From Tritrichomonas foetus (taxonomy: Eukaryota > Parabasalia > Tritrichomonadida > Tritrichomonadidae), in contig MLAK01000719.1 in NCBI GenBank assembly GCA_001839685.1, forward strand, positions 4,242 to 68,241: DNA of 64,000 nucleotides, in the 5' to 3' direction. The notes beneath the pieces are model-generated. The model was not told where the DNA came from and ran no database searches. It worked only from the letters and a program-made list of their open reading frames with translations. Both the position numbers and the translations under genes were made by a program. Shown here one piece after another: positions 12,532 through 49,198 of this stretch (the first letter of the stretch is position 1; each line of letters opens with the position of its first letter).

Positions 12532-13051
12532 TGACTGGCTATGTGTGATTAAACATTTCCATTTTGAGATAAAAATGTTTCATCATGTTTGATTATTTTA
12601 ATCATATACTATATTTCTCAAATGTTTTTGGAATTCCCCGAAACATTACACAACAGATTTTGTCGAAAAATCGTTGTTCAATTAAATGTCCGGCCATTTG
12701 AAATTACAAAAAGTTTTTTATACTCTATCAATTTTGAAAGCCCATCGAACGATGGGTTGACGCTGGATGTATTTCTGATTATCACTTCATTTTTCTTAAC
12801 TCTCAGAAAAAATAATTAATTATACAAAAAGTTTCTTATCCAGAAGATTTCTCAGAAAATCATTAATATATTTGATACAAATTGGCTCGATATCATATCA
12901 AAAAGTGATCAGGAACTTAAAGAAAAAGACTTTATACTTCATTGAATAATTTCAATATCTCATTCAAATCTAATAATTATAAACTGCATTTTGAAAGATT
13001 TGAAAAGCGGTTCAATATTTTGTACCATCAAAGTCCATTTTCATCAAAATA
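12532..13051. other. intergenic; nothing recognised
   Basis: A/T-rich spacer between two + strand genes. A 76-codon frame (12589-12819) was inspected and not supported. TCATCAAAATA just before 13052 may serve as the initiator of the flavoprotein gene. Confidence 0.5.
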
Positions 13052-16000
13052 ATGAAACCTCTCGTTGCATATGGATCAACAATGCATGGCTCTGAGAAAA
13101 TAGCCAAATATATCGCAGAGAAATTCGGTGTCAAGGCTTACGAACTCAACAGCGTCACTCTCCAGACTTTAGCCGAAGCAAAATTAGCAATTTTCGTTAT
13201 CGCCACTTTCGGAAACGGACAAGCCCCTCAAAATGCTCAATCATTCTTGGATCAATTGAATGGATCAAGCATTGATCTCAGCAACCTCCAATTTGCCGAA
13301 CTTGCTCTTGGATCGAATCACTATCAATTTTTCTGCCGCGCCGGCGAAGAATTGAACCGGATGCTTAAAGAAAAAGGAGCCAAGGAAATTATCCCATACG
13401 TTCGAAGCGACAAATGCGATCCAGACTACGGAGAATCAACAATCACAAATTTCAAGAAAGATGCTCTCAATTTGGCCAATCCAAAAAAAGCTAATTCACA
13501 GAAAGAAAATTCACAGAAAGCCAATTCAAACTCAAATTGTAAACCGCTCGTTGCATACGCATCAACAATGGGTGGGGCAGCCAGAATTGCAAAAAGAATC
13601 GCCAAAAAAATTGGCGGAGCTGAAGCACAAGAATTAAACCATTTGTCAGTCGATCAATTGAAACATGCTGGATATGCAATTTTTATCGTTTCTACTTTCG
13701 GAAATGGTGAATATCCAGATAATGGCAATGAGTTTGCCGAAAAGCTTCGAAGTGCCGAAGTTGATTTAAGCAAACTCGAATTCGCTCTTCTTGGTCTTGG
13801 TTCGAAGAAGTATCCAAACTTCTGCAAAGCGGCAGATGATTTCAATCAAATTCTCAAACATCATAAAGCTATTCCTATTTTCGATTTCCCTAAATCTGAC
13901 AAAGTTTCAGCTGATCAAGGAGCTTCAGTCATTGAAAAATTCGAAAATGATGCAATTCAACATAAACCAAAATTCAGTTGTACTTCATCAACAGCATCTT
14001 CATCTGATGAAATTATTCCACTTGTTGCGTATGGTTCAACAATGGGAGGTTCCAAAAAAATAGCAAAAAGAATCGCTGAACGATTTGGAACTGAAGCACA
14101 TGAATTAAACAGTCTCACTCTTCAAAATTTGCATGATGCAAAATACGCCATTTTTGCAGTTTCAACTTTCGGAAATGGTAATTATCCAGAAAACTGTGGA
14201 ACTTTTATTGAACATCTTAGAGGTGCTTCGATTGATCTTCATAACTTGAAATACGCTTTGATTGGTCTTGGTTCAACCAAATATGAGCAATTTTGCAAAG
14301 CCGCTAATGAATTCAATGCCATTCTTTCTTATCAACATGCAACACCAATCATTCCATATGTTCAATCGGATAAACTTTCAAGTGATCAAGGCGCTTCAGT
14401 GATCGAGAAATTCGTTGACGATGTTTATAAGTTTAGACCAACAAGTTCAAAGGTTATTCAAATCGATCCATCAGAAGCACCGATCATAGCATATGGTTCT
14501 ACTATGCACGGATCTGAAAAAATTGCTAAAGGTATTGCAGAGAAATTCGGTTTAGAAGCAGTTGAATTAAACGATATTAGTATGGACAGACTTGCTGGTA
14601 CTAAAACTGCAATTTTAGTCGTTGGGACTATCGGAAACGGGCATTATCCAAAGAATTGTCAATCATTCGCTGATTCTCTTTCCGCTTCAAGAATTGACCT
14701 AAGTAATCTCACATTTGCCCTTCTTGGACTTGGTTCGACTTACTATGAGCAATTCTGTAAAGCTGCATTCAATATCAATCGTCTTCTCACCGAAAAAGGT
14801 GCTAAGCCAGTTTTCCCGTTCCTGAAAAGCGATAAAGCTTCCACCGACCAAGGAAAAGGTGCCATTGCTGACTTTGAAAGCCGAGTTATGGCACTTAAAC
14901 CTGACCCATCATCTTCACAAAATCCCATTAAACCACTTGTTGCATATGGAAGTTCCAGACACAACGCCGAAAGAGTTGCCAAAGAAATTGCGGAGAAATT
15001 CGGCATTGAAGCAGTCGAACTTAATTCAATTAAACCAAAAGATCTAGAACAAGTTAACCATGCTGTTTTCGTAATTTCAACAACTGGAAATGGCCAATAT
15101 CCAATGAATTGTAGATCATTTTGTAAGAACTTGAATACTTCAAGCGTTGATTTACGTGGCCTCCAATATGCTGAACTTGCTCTTGGTAGTACATATTATG
15201 AATATTATTGCAAAGCAGGTGATGAACTTAATAAAATGCTCTCCGCAAAAGGTGCAAAAACCTTCATACCTTATGTAAAAAGTAATAAAGCTGATCAAGA
15301 CCAAGGAACAGGAGCCATTGAAGAATTCAAGAAGAGTCTCATTGCAGCAGTAGGACAACTTGCACCAAAACCATACACGAAACTTGAATTGAAAACTATT
15401 CAAGAAACTATTAATGATTCTTCTTTAGTTTCCCAAGGATTCACTATTGTTGATATTACATCAAAGACTTTATTATCTTCACCAAAATATATTCCAGCAC
15501 TTCACAAATACACAATTAAGCTTCCTTCTTCCATCAAGTATGGTGCAGGTGACCATGCAATGATTATGCCTGAAAATGACCCAAGTGTAGTTTCTAGTGT
15601 TCTTTCAGCGTTAAATCTTAAACCAGAAACAACATTCGAAATCGTTTCAGGAGGTAGTACCTATTCCCTTCCAAAGAAACTTACAGTTAAGCAACTTTTC
15701 ACCAAATACATCGATTTGAATGCTAAACCACCACGAAAGCTTTTAGATTCATTTAATGCATCAACTGTTGTACAACCAGTCACCGTTGCTGATCTTATTT
15801 TGAGTCAATCTTCACAAGCACCTAAACTTGAAGATATTATTGCATTTTCACCATTTATTGAACCAAGAACTTATTCAATATCATCAGCAAGACAAAATGA
15901 ACTTGATTTAATCATTGGTGATGTTTACTTCAATAATGGTGGAACACAGGGACTTTGTACACGTTATATGGCTGATCCACAGACAAAGAAAGTTCAAATC

Positions 16001-16489
16001 CAAGTAATGAAAGGATTATTCACTTATCCAGAAGATCCAAAAACATCAATTGTTATCTTCGCACTTGGAACAGGTATTTCTCCGGTCTTTTCACTTGTTG
16101 AACATCGTGCTAAGAACTTGGATTTGAAGACAGCCGGAAAATGTTTCGTTTTCTTTGGAACTCGATATAATGATTCTTCTTTGAAGGCTATTGAAGAACT
16201 TCGCAAATATGAAAAAACTGGTGCAATCACAAAACTTCACATAGCCGTTTCCAGAGAACAAAATAAACAGCATATCCAAGATTTATTGAAGGACCAAGCT
16301 GTGGCAGACGATGTTTGGGAAGTTTGGAAGGATCAAAATACACAAGCATTTTATTGCGGTCCACCAAATTCTGCAATTGATGACATTCGAGAACAATTAA
16401 CTAAATATGCACTTAATAGGGCAAATATGACAAGAACAGAAGCTGTTTGGCACTGCTCACACCATAAGTGGTGCATCGAACAATTTTAA
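13052..16489 (+). CDS. penta-flavodoxin / FAD-NAD(P)H reductase fusion flavoprotein
   Basis: The 1145-aa product has five tandem flavodoxin-like domains. They start at about residues 1, 163, 321, 477 and 626, each about 145 aa, joined by short Ser/Asn/Lys linkers. Each has a phosphate loop (YGSTMHGSEKIAK or variant), a second FMN loop (STFGNGEYPDN type) and a third (LGLGSTKYEQFCKA type), so all five could bind FMN. The style is close to MioC/CPR-type flavodoxins. From about 780 there is a ferredoxin-reductase-like module with the FAD motif RTYS at 939-942, GLCTRYM, the nucleotide-binding GTGISP at 1006-1011, FFGTR, YCGPP and a terminal aromatic (WCIEQF). Cytochrome P450 reductase and sulfite-reductase flavoproteins normally have one flavodoxin domain. 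No targeting presequence is seen (beta strand 1 begins at residue 3), so a cytosolic location is inferred. Likely role: electron transfer from NAD(P)H to FMN carriers; the acceptor is unknown. Confidence 0.92.
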   Translation: MKPLVAYGSTMHGSEKIAKYIAEKFGVKAYELNSVTLQTLAEAKLAIFVIATFGNGQAPQNAQSFLDQLNGSSIDLSNLQFAELALGSNHYQFFCRAGEELNRMLKEKGAKEIIPYVRSDKCDPDYGESTITNFKKDALNLANPKKANSQKENSQKANSNSNCKPLVAYASTMGGAARIAKRIAKKIGGAEAQELNHLSVDQLKHAGYAIFIVSTFGNGEYPDNGNEFAEKLRSAEVDLSKLEFALLGLGSKKYPNFCKAADDFNQILKHHKAIPIFDFPKSDKVSADQGASVIEKFENDAIQHKPKFSCTSSTASSSDEIIPLVAYGSTMGGSKKIAKRIAERFGTEAHELNSLTLQNLHDAKYAIFAVSTFGNGNYPENCGTFIEHLRGASIDLHNLKYALIGLGSTKYEQFCKAANEFNAILSYQHATPIIPYVQSDKLSSDQGASVIEKFVDDVYKFRPTSSKVIQIDPSEAPIIAYGSTMHGSEKIAKGIAEKFGLEAVELNDISMDRLAGTKTAILVVGTIGNGHYPKNCQSFADSLSASRIDLSNLTFALLGLGSTYYEQFCKAAFNINRLLTEKGAKPVFPFLKSDKASTDQGKGAIADFESRVMALKPDPSSSQNPIKPLVAYGSSRHNAERVAKEIAEKFGIEAVELNSIKPKDLEQVNHAVFVISTTGNGQYPMNCRSFCKNLNTSSVDLRGLQYAELALGSTYYEYYCKAGDELNKMLSAKGAKTFIPYVKSNKADQDQGTGAIEEFKKSLIAAVGQLAPKPYTKLELKTIQETINDSSLVSQGFTIVDITSKTLLSSPKYIPALHKYTIKLPSSIKYGAGDHAMIMPENDPSVVSSVLSALNLKPETTFEIVSGGSTYSLPKKLTVKQLFTKYIDLNAKPPRKLLDSFNASTVVQPVTVADLILSQSSQAPKLEDIIAFSPFIEPRTYSISSARQNELDLIIGDVYFNNGGTQGLCTRYMADPQTKKVQIQVMKGLFTYPEDPKTSIVIFALGTGISPVFSLVEHRAKNLDLKTAGKCFVFFGTRYNDSSLKAIEELRKYEKTGAITKLHIAVSREQNKQHIQDLLKDQAVADDVWEVWKDQNTQAFYCGPPNSAIDDIREQLTKYALNRANMTRTEAVWHCSHHKWCIEQF

Positions 16490-25468: not shown

Positions 25469-28400
25469 TTAAAGTTCTAAGAAGAGGGTCTTTGGTTCTG
25501 GCCACTTTTCTGGCGTCTTGACAACAAGATATTGTTTAGCTGTAACTGGATATTCAGCAAAGAAGAACACATTATTACCGGTATCAGAAACATCTTGATC
25601 TTTGCCATAATGGCGACGAAGACCATAATCCACACGTTGAAGTTTACGTAATTTCTGGTTCTGTGCACGTATGCTAACTGTTTGTTTAGGTGCTTCTTGT
25701 GTGGCAACCTTGAGTTCGCCTTTACAGAGCATACAAGATGTTCTATGCTGACCACATTTTTGGTCATCATGATAAGAGTGGCCGCATTCAAAAACAAGTG
25801 CACCAACACCACCTGCACCAGTGATTGGTGTATTGCAGTATACACAATTAGTTGTATAAACAAAAGCCGCTCTTGTTTTTGTACGTTGTGCTCTATCGTA
25901 AAGATTGATACAATCCTCCATTAACAATTGGACAACTGTGTCTGAAAGCTTCTGATTATAATCTATGTACTTAAAGACAGCAGAAAGAGCAGTTCGATAC
26001 AAAATTTGGTTGATTTCTTTAAACTGAAGTTGATATGTTGTGAAAATATTGTCAGGTGATGATCGATTTTGTTGTAAGGTTTCAACAATGAAGAATGCAA
26101 AGAATAAACAAATACTGCGACGAGTATCTGGATCAACTTCAGGAACAAGCATTGGACATTCATTACCTTCGGCATCATAACTCTTTGGTTGGATGAGGTA
26201 CAGTGGAAGTTGGAATGAAAGGAAAATGTCTTTCCACATACGATCAGTTAATTGATTTGGTGCTTTCGAAAGTAGTTCGAATGTAATTAAAACTGTTTCA
26301 TATGCTTTCTTTAATTCTGGTTCTTCTTTAACAAGATCAATCGAAGGTGCATTGATTCTTTGTCTTGATTGAATTGCATCAACCAAATCAGCTTCAAGCT
26401 CTTCAGCAACGAGATTGACAGCACTTTGCATATCACCAAGCATTGTATGAATGTGAATACAAGCATCAATGACACGATATTTAGTGCAAATTGGTAAAGC
26501 TTTGTCAATTTCGATAGATTGGCTTGATTTGATCATTGGAAGAACATCTGGTGGTGAAAACTTGCAGGTAAGCTCGAAGAGTTCGAAATGATCTTCATCT
26601 GTTAAGATTTTAACATATTCGGATTCAGCAAATGCACGTAAGTAAAGGAACTTAATGAATAAGTTTGGTTCTTTCTTAATGAATAAGCGTGCATAATCTG
26701 GATAGTCATGACCAATGAGTTCGACTGCTTTTTCAGGATTAATTAAAACAAGAAGACCAAGATGTTTCTTAATTGCTTCTTGCATAATTGTATCATCAGA
26801 AACTTTATATTCTTTACTTAAAAGTGCATGATTCACATCAGAGTCAATTTTAGCTGAAGTTCTTCTTGTTAAATCATTAACTTTAACAGATAATCTTCTT
26901 TGACGTGGAATGAATGGAGTATCTTCACCTTGCTCTTCTTTTTCACCTTCATCGTCATTGGTTTCTGAACCTTCTTTCTTTTCTTTATCCTCAGTTTCAT
27001 TCCTCTTATGTCTCTTAGTTTTCTTTGGATTTTCTGAGTCTGATTCATTGCTTTCTGAATCAGATTTATTAGTGAAAACAATTTGTGCATGCTTCTTCTT
27101 CTTTGAAGCCTTTCGACGATCTGAAGATGAACTTGATGATGATGATGAACTTTCTTCTTCATCATCTTCTTCCTCGTCCTCTTCTTCTTCATCACTGTCG
27201 CTTCCAGTTTTAATGATAATCTTGACTGGTGAAGATTCTTTCTTGTGAGACTTTCTCTTTGATTTCCTTGATTTCTTCTTTTTAATTTCTGAGGATTCTT
27301 CGTTTTGATCTTCTTCTTCTTCTTTATTTGCTTTCTTTTCATTCTGATCTTCTTCTTCTTCTTCCTCTTCTTCATTATCATCAGAACTATAATCAAATCC
27401 GGCAAATTCGTTCATCATTGTCTTAGGTACAGGTGCATCAATGATAATTGGATGTTCTGGGTCAACTTCTTGATCTTGTTTAATAAAGGCCCCTTTAATG
27501 TTGGATTGTAAAGCATCTGGAGCAGTTTTAGAAGCAACAATTTCTGCAGCTTCAAGGGACTTGGATTTAACTTCATTTGCGGTATCTTTGATTTTATCGA
27601 ATATGGATTTTTCTGGTTCAACAACTTTGGGAAAATCGTCTTCATTTCCTGAACTTGCAACGAAGTCTTCTTCTTCTTCATGCAGTTCTTCACATTTTGG
27701 CGGTTCTGTTGATCTCATTGGATCTAGATAAGGATTCTGGATATATAAGAAAATACGTGGCCTGAATTCTTCAGAGAGTGCCATAGTTTGAATAACTCTG
27801 TCATAATTTCGTGATGGCAAATATATTTCATTTGCTATTCGTGCAAACCCAGCAGCTTCACAATAATCAATTATTTCTGGATATTTAATTAAATCTGGAT
27901 ATTGATCATGAATCAGCATGATTACAGATTCTCTAACTGATGTACGTGATATTTTGGTTTCGAATGCCCATGTGATCAAAAAGCTGATGCATGAGTGAGG
28001 AATCTTAATTTGACAATTAACAATGTGTTCACCAATAACATCAATTGTCTTTAATGACTTATCAGGGCAGCAAGAACAAGTACGGAGAATTGCATCACAA
28101 ATTGCAGGATATCCAAATGTTGTTCCATTTCTAAGTTCAATAGGAAGAAGATCGACAAATGCTTGTGCAAACTTTGGTGCAAGGTCCCAATTCTTTGAAA
28201 GCAAAAGAAGTAAACGAGAATAAGCTCCATTTGTTGATGTACAGAACCATAATGTTAAAAGTTGTCTATGTACTTTTAATAATTTGTATTTCTCAGTAAT
28301 AAAAATATCACTCATATAATCAATGAGCTTTTCATTATGTAATAAGTAAATGCATGGTGAAACAAAGTCTTCAAAGCATTGGGTCCAAAGAGTGAGAAGG

Positions 28401-29938
28401 AATTCAGCAGAATCGCATTTGAATGCAAGTCTGAGAAGTTGGCTTCCATATTGTAAAGGAATTCCACGCTTAATTATGAGTTGGATAGCAGCTTCATCCC
28501 TTTCCATAGCTTTGGCACGAGTTACATAATCTTTATAGAAGCTGAATGGTATAAAGCTTGTGATATTTCGTTTCATTTTTCCGAAAATTGTGTCATAAAA
28601 TACCATAATTCGATCGTCTTCTTCTTGGAAACGTTGATAAGCTGTTTCTGTAATGAATTGTGGTAAATCACAAACCACAGCAGAATCAAAAATCTGTGCA
28701 ATTAAATCTGTATCATTTCCAGCGCCATCAAGTGCATCACTATAAATTCCAAGCATTTCTTTTTGGAGGAGAGAGCAGCGAGTGGAAGTGTCAGGATCAA
28801 TTCCGAAAACTTGAAGGTTGTTTCCTGTGTAAATTCCTTCAGCCATTGAGAAGCAAAGATTCCAATCGTTTGAAACAAACAACTTTCTTAATCTTTCGGC
28901 CCATTCAATAAATTTGATACGAAACATAGATTTTGGAGTAAGCATGAAAAGTGTTTCATGTGATTTTGTCCAAACATGATAAATTCTGATAATCTTTTTA
29001 AGTTCTGGAGTGTAGTACCTTTCAATGCGTGGATGAGTTGAACCAATAACAAGATCAATAGATCCATCAGTGAAAATAATACTAACTACATAATTTTTAC
29101 GAATGATGGCTTCTTTGATTTTAATATCAAAGGAATGTTCAAATAATGTGATGATTTTTGTATATGATGAAATTTTGTACATAGAAAATGATGTTCCATT
29201 CCAAATAATGACAAGTGTTGATCCGTCTGTATTAACTTTCGCATCAAATCGAATCGACTCTCCAAGTGGAGATGATGCAATATCTGTATACTCTTGTGTT
29301 CTAATATCAAGAATATTAACTGAATTATTTTCTGAGTAAATCAAATAAGAAGATTCTGTTGATGGCATAAAAACATTCTTTAATGGCATTCGTCCGGCAA
29401 ATAAGCAAGTTTCCTTTGGTGTCAAACTTGTAAAGCGAGTGAATTGAAATATGTTTCCGATTCTGTCGCAGGCAACGATCGAATTATAATCTTGGGCGAA
29501 AGTTACTTGAGTAATTGGTGCAACAGAAACATCATCTTTTCCGGCACGAATAATTTGCTTGAGAAATGATTTATTTTTTGGATTGAAAATAAAAATATTT
29601 CCACTTAAATAACCTGTTACTAAAAATGAAGAATCATAGGCGATAGAAAAGCACGACGGAATTTCTGTGCACTTTGCAAGCGGTCCAATAGTTTCGAAAA
29701 CATTTGACCCCCATGGCGCGAGAAATGGAAGAGGGTAATCAGCGATAAAACACATAAAACTTTGGTTCGAGCTGGAAGCCGTCAGAGTTTTGACTGATGG
29801 AACGATTTTGTAGTCGTCCATTTTTGTAATATTAAAATACTCTTTCGACATTTCAAAGACTTTGGAGCTCCGCATTTTTTCCCTTTTATTCCAAGTTTTT
29901 GCTTTGATCGATAGAATATTCAAATATTTGAGAGCCAT
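25469..29938 (-). CDS. Vps8-like CORVET subunit (beta-propeller, solenoid, RING)
   Basis: The 1489-aa product has an N-terminal WD/beta-propeller (about 40-340) with the Vps8 signature TGYLSGNIFIFNPKNK followed by AQDYNSIVACDRIGNIFQF. A clathrin-heavy-chain-like alpha solenoid follows to about 840 and resumes from 1030 to 1330. A C-terminal RING-like finger lies at about 1363-1412 (CVYC, FECGHSYHD, CMLC). Vps8 is the Rab5-binding subunit of the CORVET endosomal tether. Between about 850 and 1025 there is a charged Glu/Asp/Lys/Ser insert that includes a run of ten Ser. The longest frame begins with TTG, so I chose the first ATG (MALKYLNI). A later ATG (MSKEYFNI or MDDYKIVP) is also possible. 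Confidence 0.82.
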   Translation of the reverse strand: MALKYLNILSIKAKTWNKREKMRSSKVFEMSKEYFNITKMDDYKIVPSVKTLTASSSNQSFMCFIADYPLPFLAPWGSNVFETIGPLAKCTEIPSCFSIAYDSSFLVTGYLSGNIFIFNPKNKSFLKQIIRAGKDDVSVAPITQVTFAQDYNSIVACDRIGNIFQFTRFTSLTPKETCLFAGRMPLKNVFMPSTESSYLIYSENNSVNILDIRTQEYTDIASSPLGESIRFDAKVNTDGSTLVIIWNGTSFSMYKISSYTKIITLFEHSFDIKIKEAIIRKNYVVSIIFTDGSIDLVIGSTHPRIERYYTPELKKIIRIYHVWTKSHETLFMLTPKSMFRIKFIEWAERLRKLFVSNDWNLCFSMAEGIYTGNNLQVFGIDPDTSTRCSLLQKEMLGIYSDALDGAGNDTDLIAQIFDSAVVCDLPQFITETAYQRFQEEDDRIMVFYDTIFGKMKRNITSFIPFSFYKDYVTRAKAMERDEAAIQLIIKRGIPLQYGSQLLRLAFKCDSAEFLLTLWTQCFEDFVSPCIYLLHNEKLIDYMSDIFITEKYKLLKVHRQLLTLWFCTSTNGAYSRLLLLLSKNWDLAPKFAQAFVDLLPIELRNGTTFGYPAICDAILRTCSCCPDKSLKTIDVIGEHIVNCQIKIPHSCISFLITWAFETKISRTSVRESVIMLIHDQYPDLIKYPEIIDYCEAAGFARIANEIYLPSRNYDRVIQTMALSEEFRPRIFLYIQNPYLDPMRSTEPPKCEELHEEEEDFVASSGNEDDFPKVVEPEKSIFDKIKDTANEVKSKSLEAAEIVASKTAPDALQSNIKGAFIKQDQEVDPEHPIIIDAPVPKTMMNEFAGFDYSSDDNEEEEEEEEDQNEKKANKEEEEDQNEESSEIKKKKSRKSKRKSHKKESSPVKIIIKTGSDSDEEEEDEEEDDEEESSSSSSSSSSDRRKASKKKKHAQIVFTNKSDSESNESDSENPKKTKRHKRNETEDKEKKEGSETNDDEGEKEEQGEDTPFIPRQRRLSVKVNDLTRRTSAKIDSDVNHALLSKEYKVSDDTIMQEAIKKHLGLLVLINPEKAVELIGHDYPDYARLFIKKEPNLFIKFLYLRAFAESEYVKILTDEDHFELFELTCKFSPPDVLPMIKSSQSIEIDKALPICTKYRVIDACIHIHTMLGDMQSAVNLVAEELEADLVDAIQSRQRINAPSIDLVKEEPELKKAYETVLITFELLSKAPNQLTDRMWKDIFLSFQLPLYLIQPKSYDAEGNECPMLVPEVDPDTRRSICLFFAFFIVETLQQNRSSPDNIFTTYQLQFKEINQILYRTALSAVFKYIDYNQKLSDTVVQLLMEDCINLYDRAQRTKTRAAFVYTTNCVYCNTPITGAGGVGALVFECGHSYHDDQKCGQHRTSCMLCKGELKVATQEAPKQTVSIRAQNQKLRKLQRVDYGLRRHYGKDQDVSDTGNNVFFFAEYPVTAKQYLVVKTPEKWPEPKTLFLEL

Positions 29939-47599: not shown

Positions 47600-49198
47600 T
47601 TATTTCCTTTCACTTCTAATATCTTTCATCAAAGCGTTTCCTTCAGCTACAGCGCTTGGATCAAACATTAATCTTTGTGCATACATTTCTGCTTTATCCA
47701 AATTATTCTTACCTCTGAAATATTGTGCCAAAAATAGAATTGCTTCTTTCGCTTCATCTTTTTTGGCGGCCTCTTCATCTTCGACGTATTTTTCTGTATA
47801 ATTTTCAAAACAAAAAGCAGCTCGGTCTTCATCACCTTCTTCTTTATAAAGTTTAGCGAGTTTGTAAATAGCTATTCCATCACTATCAACATTACAAACG
47901 GCTCTCTGATAACATTTAATTGCATTTTCTCTTTCCATTAACTCTTCATAACATTCTCCAAGTGCCATCCACATTCTTGTGTCAGACGGATTCATTGTAA
48001 CTGCATTTCTATAATATAAAATTGCTTGATAAGGCATTTTTGACATTTCAAAAGCACGTCCAAGACCATAAAGCGCTCTAAAGTCACGTGGATTGGCTTC
48101 ATAAGCTTTTGTGTAAGCTGCAATGGCTGCTGAAATGTTTTCGAGTTCAACAAATTCATGACCAATTAAAGTATAAGCGAATCCAAACGAAGAATCAAAT
48201 CTTAAAGCCATTGCAAAGTGTGAAATAGCTTCTTCATGACGGCCATTTATTGCAAAATAGTTTCCCGAAACAGTTAGAGTTTCTGGTCGGAATTTATCAA
48301 TTTTAGTTAGTGATTGCGCTAATTCAGAAAGACCAGCAACATCTTCTTTTACGAATAAAAGATTTGAATATAATTCAAGTGTTTCAAGTCTGTAAGGATC
48401 CATTCTTCGTAGTTCTTCAAATAATGTCTGCGCACGTTCGAAATCGCGATGATGATATCTGACTGCAGCTTCTAAAGCGACAATAGAGGCTGTTCTTGGA
48501 AGATTTATTGATGGTATCAAACGAAGGGCTGCTTCAGTTTGTTGAAGCTCAGCAAAGAGTTCAATTCTAAATAAAAGAGAAGTCCAATGCTTTGGAAGTG
48601 ATCCAAGTGAAGGTGCAATAACTGAGTCATCAAATCTAATTAAAATTGTGATAAGTAATCGCCAGGCACTTCGATTTAGTGGAAAAGCATTCAAACTTTT
48701 CAATAAAAATGGAAGTGCATCCTTATGACGATTGCATCGAACTAAAATTGCCGCATAAATGTATAAATTTATTGGATCAAAAGATTCAACAAATGGTTCT
48801 GCTTCTTGTGCAAGTGATTCATACGGATCATTACTGCGATTGTTCGTTGATGAAAGAATACCAAGAAGGTTTGAAGAATCTGGAATAGTTTGTTCAATTT
48901 CTCTCTGTAAATCGATTAATCGAGATAAAAATCGAAGACCAAGAGATTCTTGATCTTGACAGTCTTTTAATGTGTTAACAGCTTTTTTGAATTCACCGAT
49001 ACGAAATTGCGCTTGTGCTTGTAAAAACTGTGGCGATTTTTGGGATAAATTAATTTTTTGAGTGAATCCGCTAGTAATTAAAAATTCGAGTACCCAGGTA
49101 GCTGACTGAGATAAGCAGCGAGTTGATAAATCAGAAAAAGCAGCTATTAATTCTTCCTGATTCAATTTTTCTTCATTCATGCGAATTTCTTTTTCCAT
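47600..49198 (-). CDS. CDC23: anaphase-promoting complex subunit APC8/Cdc23
   Basis: A 532-aa TPR protein. It matches APC8 closely over residues about 210-470: YHHRDFERAQTLFEELRRMD, PYRLETLELYSNLLFV, KIDKFRPETLTVSGNYF, IGHEFVELENISAAIAAY, NPRDFRALYGLGRAFEMSKM, PYQAILYYRNAVTMNPSDTR, ALGECYEEL and KLAKLYKEEGDEDRAAFCFE. APC8/Cdc23 is a TPR scaffold of the APC/C, the E3 ligase that drives anaphase and mitotic exit. The N-terminal domain (ATWVLEFLITSGF; QFRIGEFKKAVNTLKDCQDQ) also follows the family, and length is normal. The ATG is followed at once by the APC8-like N-terminal helix; a TCACCTAAATAGG upstream may be the initiator. Confidence 0.92.
   Translation of the reverse strand: MEKEIRMNEEKLNQEELIAAFSDLSTRCLSQSATWVLEFLITSGFTQKINLSQKSPQFLQAQAQFRIGEFKKAVNTLKDCQDQESLGLRFLSRLIDLQREIEQTIPDSSNLLGILSSTNNRSNDPYESLAQEAEPFVESFDPINLYIYAAILVRCNRHKDALPFLLKSLNAFPLNRSAWRLLITILIRFDDSVIAPSLGSLPKHWTSLLFRIELFAELQQTEAALRLIPSINLPRTASIVALEAAVRYHHRDFERAQTLFEELRRMDPYRLETLELYSNLLFVKEDVAGLSELAQSLTKIDKFRPETLTVSGNYFAINGRHEEAISHFAMALRFDSSFGFAYTLIGHEFVELENISAAIAAYTKAYEANPRDFRALYGLGRAFEMSKMPYQAILYYRNAVTMNPSDTRMWMALGECYEELMERENAIKCYQRAVCNVDSDGIAIYKLAKLYKEEGDEDRAAFCFENYTEKYVEDEEAAKKDEAKEAILFLAQYFRGKNNLDKAEMYAQRLMFDPSAVAEGNALMKDIRSERK

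Follow-up and report, generated by a model that had tools for sequence, protein, structure and literature searches.

A five-flavodoxin FAD/NADPH reductase in Tritrichomonas foetus, a conserved variant form of the diflavin reductases

We examined a 64,000-nucleotide stretch of Tritrichomonas foetus DNA (assembly GCA_001839685.1, contig MLAK01000719.1, positions 4,242 to 68,241 of the forward strand; hereafter the window), which carries a gene for a reductase with five flavodoxin domains. The reading frame runs on the forward strand without interruption from an ATG at 13052 to a stop at 16489, and its codon usage correlates at 0.91 with that of nine other open reading frames (ORFs) of the window (range over the ten, 0.82-0.96). 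A first-pass annotation had proposed that five flavodoxin repeats and one reductase module lie in a single frame of 1145 amino acids (aa), and both the frame and Pfam bear this out: Flavodoxin_1 matched five stretches (whole-protein E-value 6.4e-110), followed by FAD_binding_1 (1e-12; the best stretch covers only profile positions 38-119 of 222) and then NAD_binding_1 (2.1e-10). In a search of the 63.7 Mb assembly, the reductase gene was the sole full-length match among the matches listed, and a genome-wide Flavodoxin_1 search listed 16 matches, of which five fall within this gene and the remaining 11 are spread singly over eleven further frames. An inosine monophosphate dehydrogenase (IMPDH) locus of the assembly is identical over all 503 residues to Protein Data Bank entry 1ak5, the enzyme of Tritrichomonas foetus, which supports a parabasalid source. 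The protein has the domain order of the diflavin superfamily, in which a flavodoxin-like domain for flavin mononucleotide (FMN) is N-terminal to a ferredoxin-NADP+ reductase (FNR)-like module for flavin adenine dinucleotide (FAD) and NADPH, with a connecting domain. The experimentally described members of the superfamily have exactly one FMN domain; since this protein has five, we filed it as a variant of the diflavin reductases and not as an ordinary member. The motif TTCATCA, which we take to resemble the trichomonad initiator element, stands directly 5' of the start codon (window 13040-13051).

The five flavodoxins, D1 to D5 (Table 1), were located by a profile made from the domains themselves at residues 1-147, 162-310, 320-467, 474-621 and 625-772, and their pairwise identity is 43-61%. 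The annotation had credited each repeat with all three FMN loops; these are recognisable in D1 through D5, with substitutions in D4 and D5. From D1 to D5, loop 1 reads GSTMHGS, ASTMGGA, GSTMGGS, GSTMHGS and GSSRHNA, and across the five domains loops 2 and 3 follow (S/A/G)T(F/I/T)GNGxxPxN and LGSxxYxx(F/Y)C. Loop columns, picked from the motifs of P450 reductase and MioC, exceeded the remaining columns in similarity in each of the positional groups (D1, middle, D4 and D5), with 64, 20, 5 and 164 random column sets of equal size, respectively, reaching the observed loop value in 5000 draws. P450 reductase and MioC are also among the better Protein Data Bank (PDB) matches of D1 alone and of D5 alone. 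From the loops we infer that all five domains are probably loaded with FMN. The isoelectric points of the domains are near neutral (5.9-8.5); charge was rejected as a mark of the family, most hydrogenase-linked and single-flavodoxin domains being near neutral as well.

In the reductase module, the motifs named by the annotation (RTYS, GTGISP, FFGTR and YCGPP) are all present in the protein sequence. The roles of the FAD/NADPH motif residues, and the meaning of the loop motifs, are those of the diflavin literature, in which the Ser-Arg pair has a role in NADPH preference. R939, Y941, S942, G1006, G1008, P1011, S1067, R1068 and C1102 are retained in all five multi-flavodoxin proteins described below, and the 15 module columns examined are invariant across them (15/15). 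Since the Ser-Arg pair (S1067, R1068) is kept, the electron donor is probably NADPH rather than NADH; for the related diflavin module of Pelomyxa hydrogenases, a passage of one report mentions an NADH pocket (PMC10579272). In the predicted structure, D5 and the module superpose on P450 reductase, with F1145 pairing with P450 reductase residue 677, so that D5 is predicted to pack on the FAD module as it does there. A separate model of D5 and the module alone reached a predicted local distance difference test score (pLDDT) of 75.9 and a predicted template modelling score (pTM) of 0.57. The list of structure matches mostly spans residues 623-1145, and the near-absence of D1-D4 from it is uninformative on their fold. 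Beyond the D1-D2 linker, pLDDT is below 50 in the other inter-domain stretches (residues 307-320, 464-475, 617-624 and 769-776).

Table 1. Features of the reductase gene (positions in the window, residues of the 1145-aa protein) and loci of the hydrogenase-diflavin genes of the genome
Feature	Position	Strand	Residues and remarks
Five-flavodoxin FAD/NADPH reductase gene	13052..16489	+	1145 aa, single uninterrupted frame
D1 flavodoxin	13052..13477	+	~1-142
Linker D1-D2	13478..13540	+	143-163, pLDDT <50
D2 flavodoxin, middle type	13541..13969	+	~164-306
D3 flavodoxin, middle type	14012..14440	+	~321-463; same group as D2
D4 flavodoxin	14477..14899	+	~476-616; counterpart of third domain in four-flavodoxin relatives
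D5 flavodoxin	14924..15355	+	~625-768; groups with relatives' last domain and single-flavodoxin proteins
FAD/NADPH (FNR-like) module and connecting domain	15380..16486	+	~777-1145
RTYS, FAD-binding motif	15866..15877	+	939-942
GTGISP, NADPH-binding motif	16067..16084	+	1006-1011
Cys1102, equivalent to the conserved NADPH-site cysteine	16355..16357	+	
[FeFe]-hydrogenase-diflavin genes			L009, L010, L011, L012, L016, L017, L018, L020, L021

We then considered the relatives of the protein. Two protein searches, each scoring only the ~8000 candidates with most shared words, returned 11 and 34 rows (the query row counted in both), among which the same four other multi-flavodoxin proteins appeared. 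One, P0002 (1124 aa), has five flavodoxins and is 59% identical over the whole length; the others, P0003, P0004 and P0005 (982-993 aa), have four each and are 48-51% identical over 86%. A family with at least two flavodoxin units, which the annotation had named as support, is thereby borne out, with one more five-copy and three four-copy proteins. Applied to 50 proteins, the local profile found four or five domains in five, one hit in 41, none in two, and two partial hits each in P0043 and P0045. The nearest one-flavodoxin proteins found, P0012-P0014 (506-525 aa), are 42-44% identical to D5 and the module. Mean pairwise identity among the five multi-flavodoxin proteins was 0.73 in D1, 0.59 in D3, 0.63 in D4 and 0.60 in D5, D1 being the highest of those counted (D2, to which nothing corresponds in the conservation alignment's four-copy rows, was left out), 0.55 in the FAD/NADPH module and 0.10-0.31 in the linkers.

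The first, fourth and fifth flavodoxins sort by their place in the chain, whichever protein they come from. A 36-domain tree united the first domains of the five proteins in one clade (support 98/95), joined D4 to domain three of the four-copy proteins in another (98/88) and placed D5 with the last domains of those proteins and P0012-P0014 in a third (92/94); the middle domains were left without a resolved group. A smaller tree of 25 rows separated the D5-type and single-flavodoxin rows from the rest at 88/91 and gathered D2, D3 and the four-copy proteins' second domain into a middle group at 99/92; with these rows, a single clade of all five window-protein domains was rejected (approximately unbiased test, p-AU 3.6e-06). 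Constraint tests gave a p-AU of 0.11 for P0001_D2 with P0002_D2, 0.08 for D3 with D3 and 0.45 for P0001_D2 with P0001_D3, and P0002_D2 pairs with P0002_D3 at 91/85. Most simply, the domain sequences suggest an ancestor that had four flavodoxins before the lineages split, with the middle domain doubled later, once or twice. Within the repeat families over the flavodoxins, copies share 60-78% of their bases with the reference copy, which indicates that they are old. When contigs were scanned with two peptide patterns for a prokaryotic source, 48 stretches matched, but no relative was confirmed among them.

In a tree of the FAD modules, the five multi-flavodoxin proteins formed a clade (99/99) that joined P0012-P0014 (100/100), and the multi-flavodoxin and hydrogenase-linked modules stood apart from the rows of P450 reductase, nitric oxide synthase (NOS) and methionine synthase reductase (MSR) at 100/100. 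In that tree the row NOS_P0022 is only 32% filled, NOS_P0022 and CPR_P0009 have an odd letter make-up, and the P450 reductase rows look unreliably aligned at the extreme C-terminus. The five-flavodoxin reductase is, in sum, a real and conserved variant form of diflavin reductase.

To our knowledge, experimentally described diflavin reductases have one flavodoxin each, in agreement with the annotation, which knew of no experimentally described enzyme with the present layout. P450 reductase, the sulfite reductase flavoprotein and the NOS reductase module all have one where this protein has five, and, in contrast to P450 reductase, the protein has no room for an N-terminal membrane anchor, its first strand starting at residue 4. 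The multi-flavodoxin layout as such is, however, already in print: passages of a 2023 paper give Volvox Vocar.0018s0107, which is uncharacterised, three predicted flavodoxins followed by an FAD domain, and describe this layout as common to many other green algae and Phytophthora (PMC10617192). Compared by that description only, those proteins have three flavodoxins where the present family has four or five. This was the only multi-flavodoxin/FAD description among the papers listed by our searches of the open PMC library, and none of those papers gave an experimental account of a multi-flavodoxin reductase as far as their listing or passages showed; the listing of one, PMC6716667, has the phrase 'two FMN-binding domains'. 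Giardia GiOR-1, a free diflavin protein, is reported to have reduced dichlorophenolindophenol (DCIP) with NADPH (PMC3044749). GiOR-1 and GiOR-2, which we set apart by description only, and P0012-P0014 have one flavodoxin against five here, and the FAD modules of P0012-P0014 are like those of the multi-flavodoxin proteins, which they join at 100/100. What is added here is the four-/five-copy family of parabasalid type, the conservation of its domains by position, and the presence of degenerate hydrogenase-linked modules alongside it.

Those modules belong to long [FeFe]-hydrogenases that end in a diflavin module resembling CysJ, a type described in Trichomonas vaginalis, Pelomyxa and Preaxostyla (PMC10703272, PMC10579272); NOS activity has been claimed for one such T. 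vaginalis protein (PMC9404748). The FAD modules of the hydrogenase genes of the present genome lie on the same side of the 100/100 branch as those of the multi-flavodoxin proteins, but the window protein lacks a hydrogenase or NuoG-like part: Fe_hyd_lg_C was not found in it and was found in nine other genes. Of the nine [FeFe]-hydrogenase-diflavin genes in the genome, eight are continuous; the other (L020, 76-3360) consists of two same-frame ORFs parted by a stop, either a real split or a sequence error. Pfam detected Flavodoxin_1 in five of the eight continuous fusions, with at most one match each, and in none of the other three. The Pro of GxGxxP, which the window protein keeps, is missing in 7/9 of the hydrogenase-linked modules and the conserved Cys in 5/9; both are retained in 2/9 and in hydrogenase P0006, from another source. 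These sequences suggest that NAD(P)H use is lost or changed in the modules without the Pro or the Cys, which may have become unable to draw on NAD(P)H directly.

We also searched the genome for the partners of known diflavin reductases. In contrast to the settings of P450 reductase, NOS, sulfite reductase and MSR, the corresponding partner or oxygenase families gave no genome match: p450 (the control rang in 7/14), NO_synthase (2/14; the NOS oxygenase domain is likewise not in the window protein), NIR_SIR (11/14) and Met_synt_B12 (7/14). Prismane, the hybrid cluster protein family, gave no genome match either, with a positive control given, nor did CIAPIN1 (Dre2), the partner of Tah18/NDOR1, but its control rang in 0/14, which leaves that negative unusable. 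Cytochrome b5 gave ten genome matches.

Other flavodoxin genes of the genome include L013 (41-1633, minus strand) and L014 (701-2308, plus strand), each with an N-terminal radical S-adenosylmethionine (SAM) domain and a C-terminal flavodoxin, the reverse of the domain order of TYW1 as given in the abstract of PMC9186531. L015 (1140-1562, plus strand) encodes a free flavodoxin of 140 aa that is acidic (isoelectric point 4.7) and groups with the radical-SAM-linked flavodoxins; the locus adjoining it is open in all six frames and is perhaps a run of N. L019 (1619-3229, minus strand) encodes a free one-flavodoxin diflavin protein of 536 aa with a long branch in the domain tree. Around the reductase gene, a minus-strand ORF at 47600-49198 encodes a tetratricopeptide repeat (TPR) protein with an ANAPC8 match, and another at 25469-29938 a large protein with a Vps41 TPR match.

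The intact motifs, the predicted structure and the conservation suggest how such an enzyme might work. NADPH would give hydride to FAD, and FAD would hand single electrons to the FMN of D5, packed on the module. D1-D4, on short and probably flexible linkers and each probably FMN-loaded, would be reduced by D5 or would come to the FAD module one after another, and would pass the electrons to one or more acceptors; docking would most likely fall to D1, given that its conservation is highest. A single NADPH engine would thus serve several tethered flavodoxins that differ from one another and stand in for a free flavodoxin. The reading we favour, at about an even chance of being right, is that of a soluble reductase of NADPH diflavin type with a multiplied FMN domain, in which the array distributes electrons to one or more acceptors.

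Several observations weigh against this electron distributor. The absences of partner families rest on six-frame searches of a draft assembly. None of the 22 ORFs scanned around the gene matches a redox family, for which reason gene neighbours were rejected as partners, and nine of the 22, both immediate neighbours included, match nothing. The structure model of the full protein is of moderate confidence and built on five sequences, and pLDDT falls below 50 inside the module at residues 867-870, 1069-1072 and 1105-1107. The loop excess of D5 is weak, at 164/5000. Lastly, D4 and D5 carry Ile and Thr, respectively, at the loop-2 position where D1-D3 have Phe, and in the four-copy proteins the last domain reads STINDG in place of STxGxG, with Asn for a loop glycine; FMN binding may therefore be weak, or the potential shifted, at some of the sites.

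The flavodoxins could instead form an electron store, in which one NADPH after another would charge the FAD and the five FMN, the latter with ten electrons, until all empty at once into a multi-electron acceptor. The upkeep of four or five flavodoxins in all five family members found speaks for a store; however, the window protein has no fused multi-electron acceptor domain, the candidate acceptor prismane/hybrid cluster protein was not found in the genome, and the position-specific divergence suggests differing roles over identical storage units. We regard a store as unlikely. It would be improbable, in our estimate, that current passes through D5 only and that the outer flavodoxins serve to bind partners, whether or not they carry FMN, or simply add to the flavodoxin dose. 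Probably flexible linkers, the conservation of D1, as expected of a docking domain, and the loss of the loop-2 Phe in D4 are consistent with that arrangement, but pure docking would predict drift of unused loops, and the FMN loops stand above background in every group.

The array might also supply separate redox enzymes, with D1, D2, D3 and D4 each adapted to a client of its own; acting in trans, the tethered flavodoxins would reload the flavodoxin domains of the hydrogenase fusions and of the radical-SAM-flavodoxin proteins. The possible loss of NAD(P)H use in hydrogenase-linked modules is in keeping with such a role; against it count the three of eight continuous fusions without a Pfam flavodoxin and the 2/9 modules that keep their motifs, and we hold it to be quite improbable. 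Very improbable is a serial wire, running from FAD through D5, D4, D3 and D2 to D1 with exit from D1 only: the order of domain types is identical in all five proteins and conservation is highest in D1, the domain farthest along the wire, yet the linkers are of low confidence in the model and poorly conserved, which indicates no fixed contacts between neighbours, and the number of middle domains varies between members. Tandem repeats in a draft assembly could in principle arise by misassembly or recent in-species duplication of an ordinary one-flavodoxin reductase, the former being named by the annotation as a refutation, but we saw no sign of it, since the copies are only 43-61% identical, group by position with a single clade rejected (p-AU 3.6e-06) and recur in separate five- and four-copy proteins, and, short of an error common to the five sequences, it is refuted.

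The textbook account of how the two electrons of NADPH are split comes from diflavin reductases, in which a single FMN lies between FAD and acceptor. An enzyme family that conserves a series of four or five FMN-type domains poses the question of what the extra flavodoxins add, be it more acceptors, storage or tuned potentials, and as one gene makes one chain, stoichiometry and electron flow are directly testable. The finding would also bear on how NADPH is spent in anaerobic parabasalids without classical haem partners. A role of flavodoxin-like proteins of Trichomonas vaginalis in nitro drug activation has been reported (PMC10262402), and the five-flavodoxin reductase is perhaps relevant to the reductive activation of such drugs.

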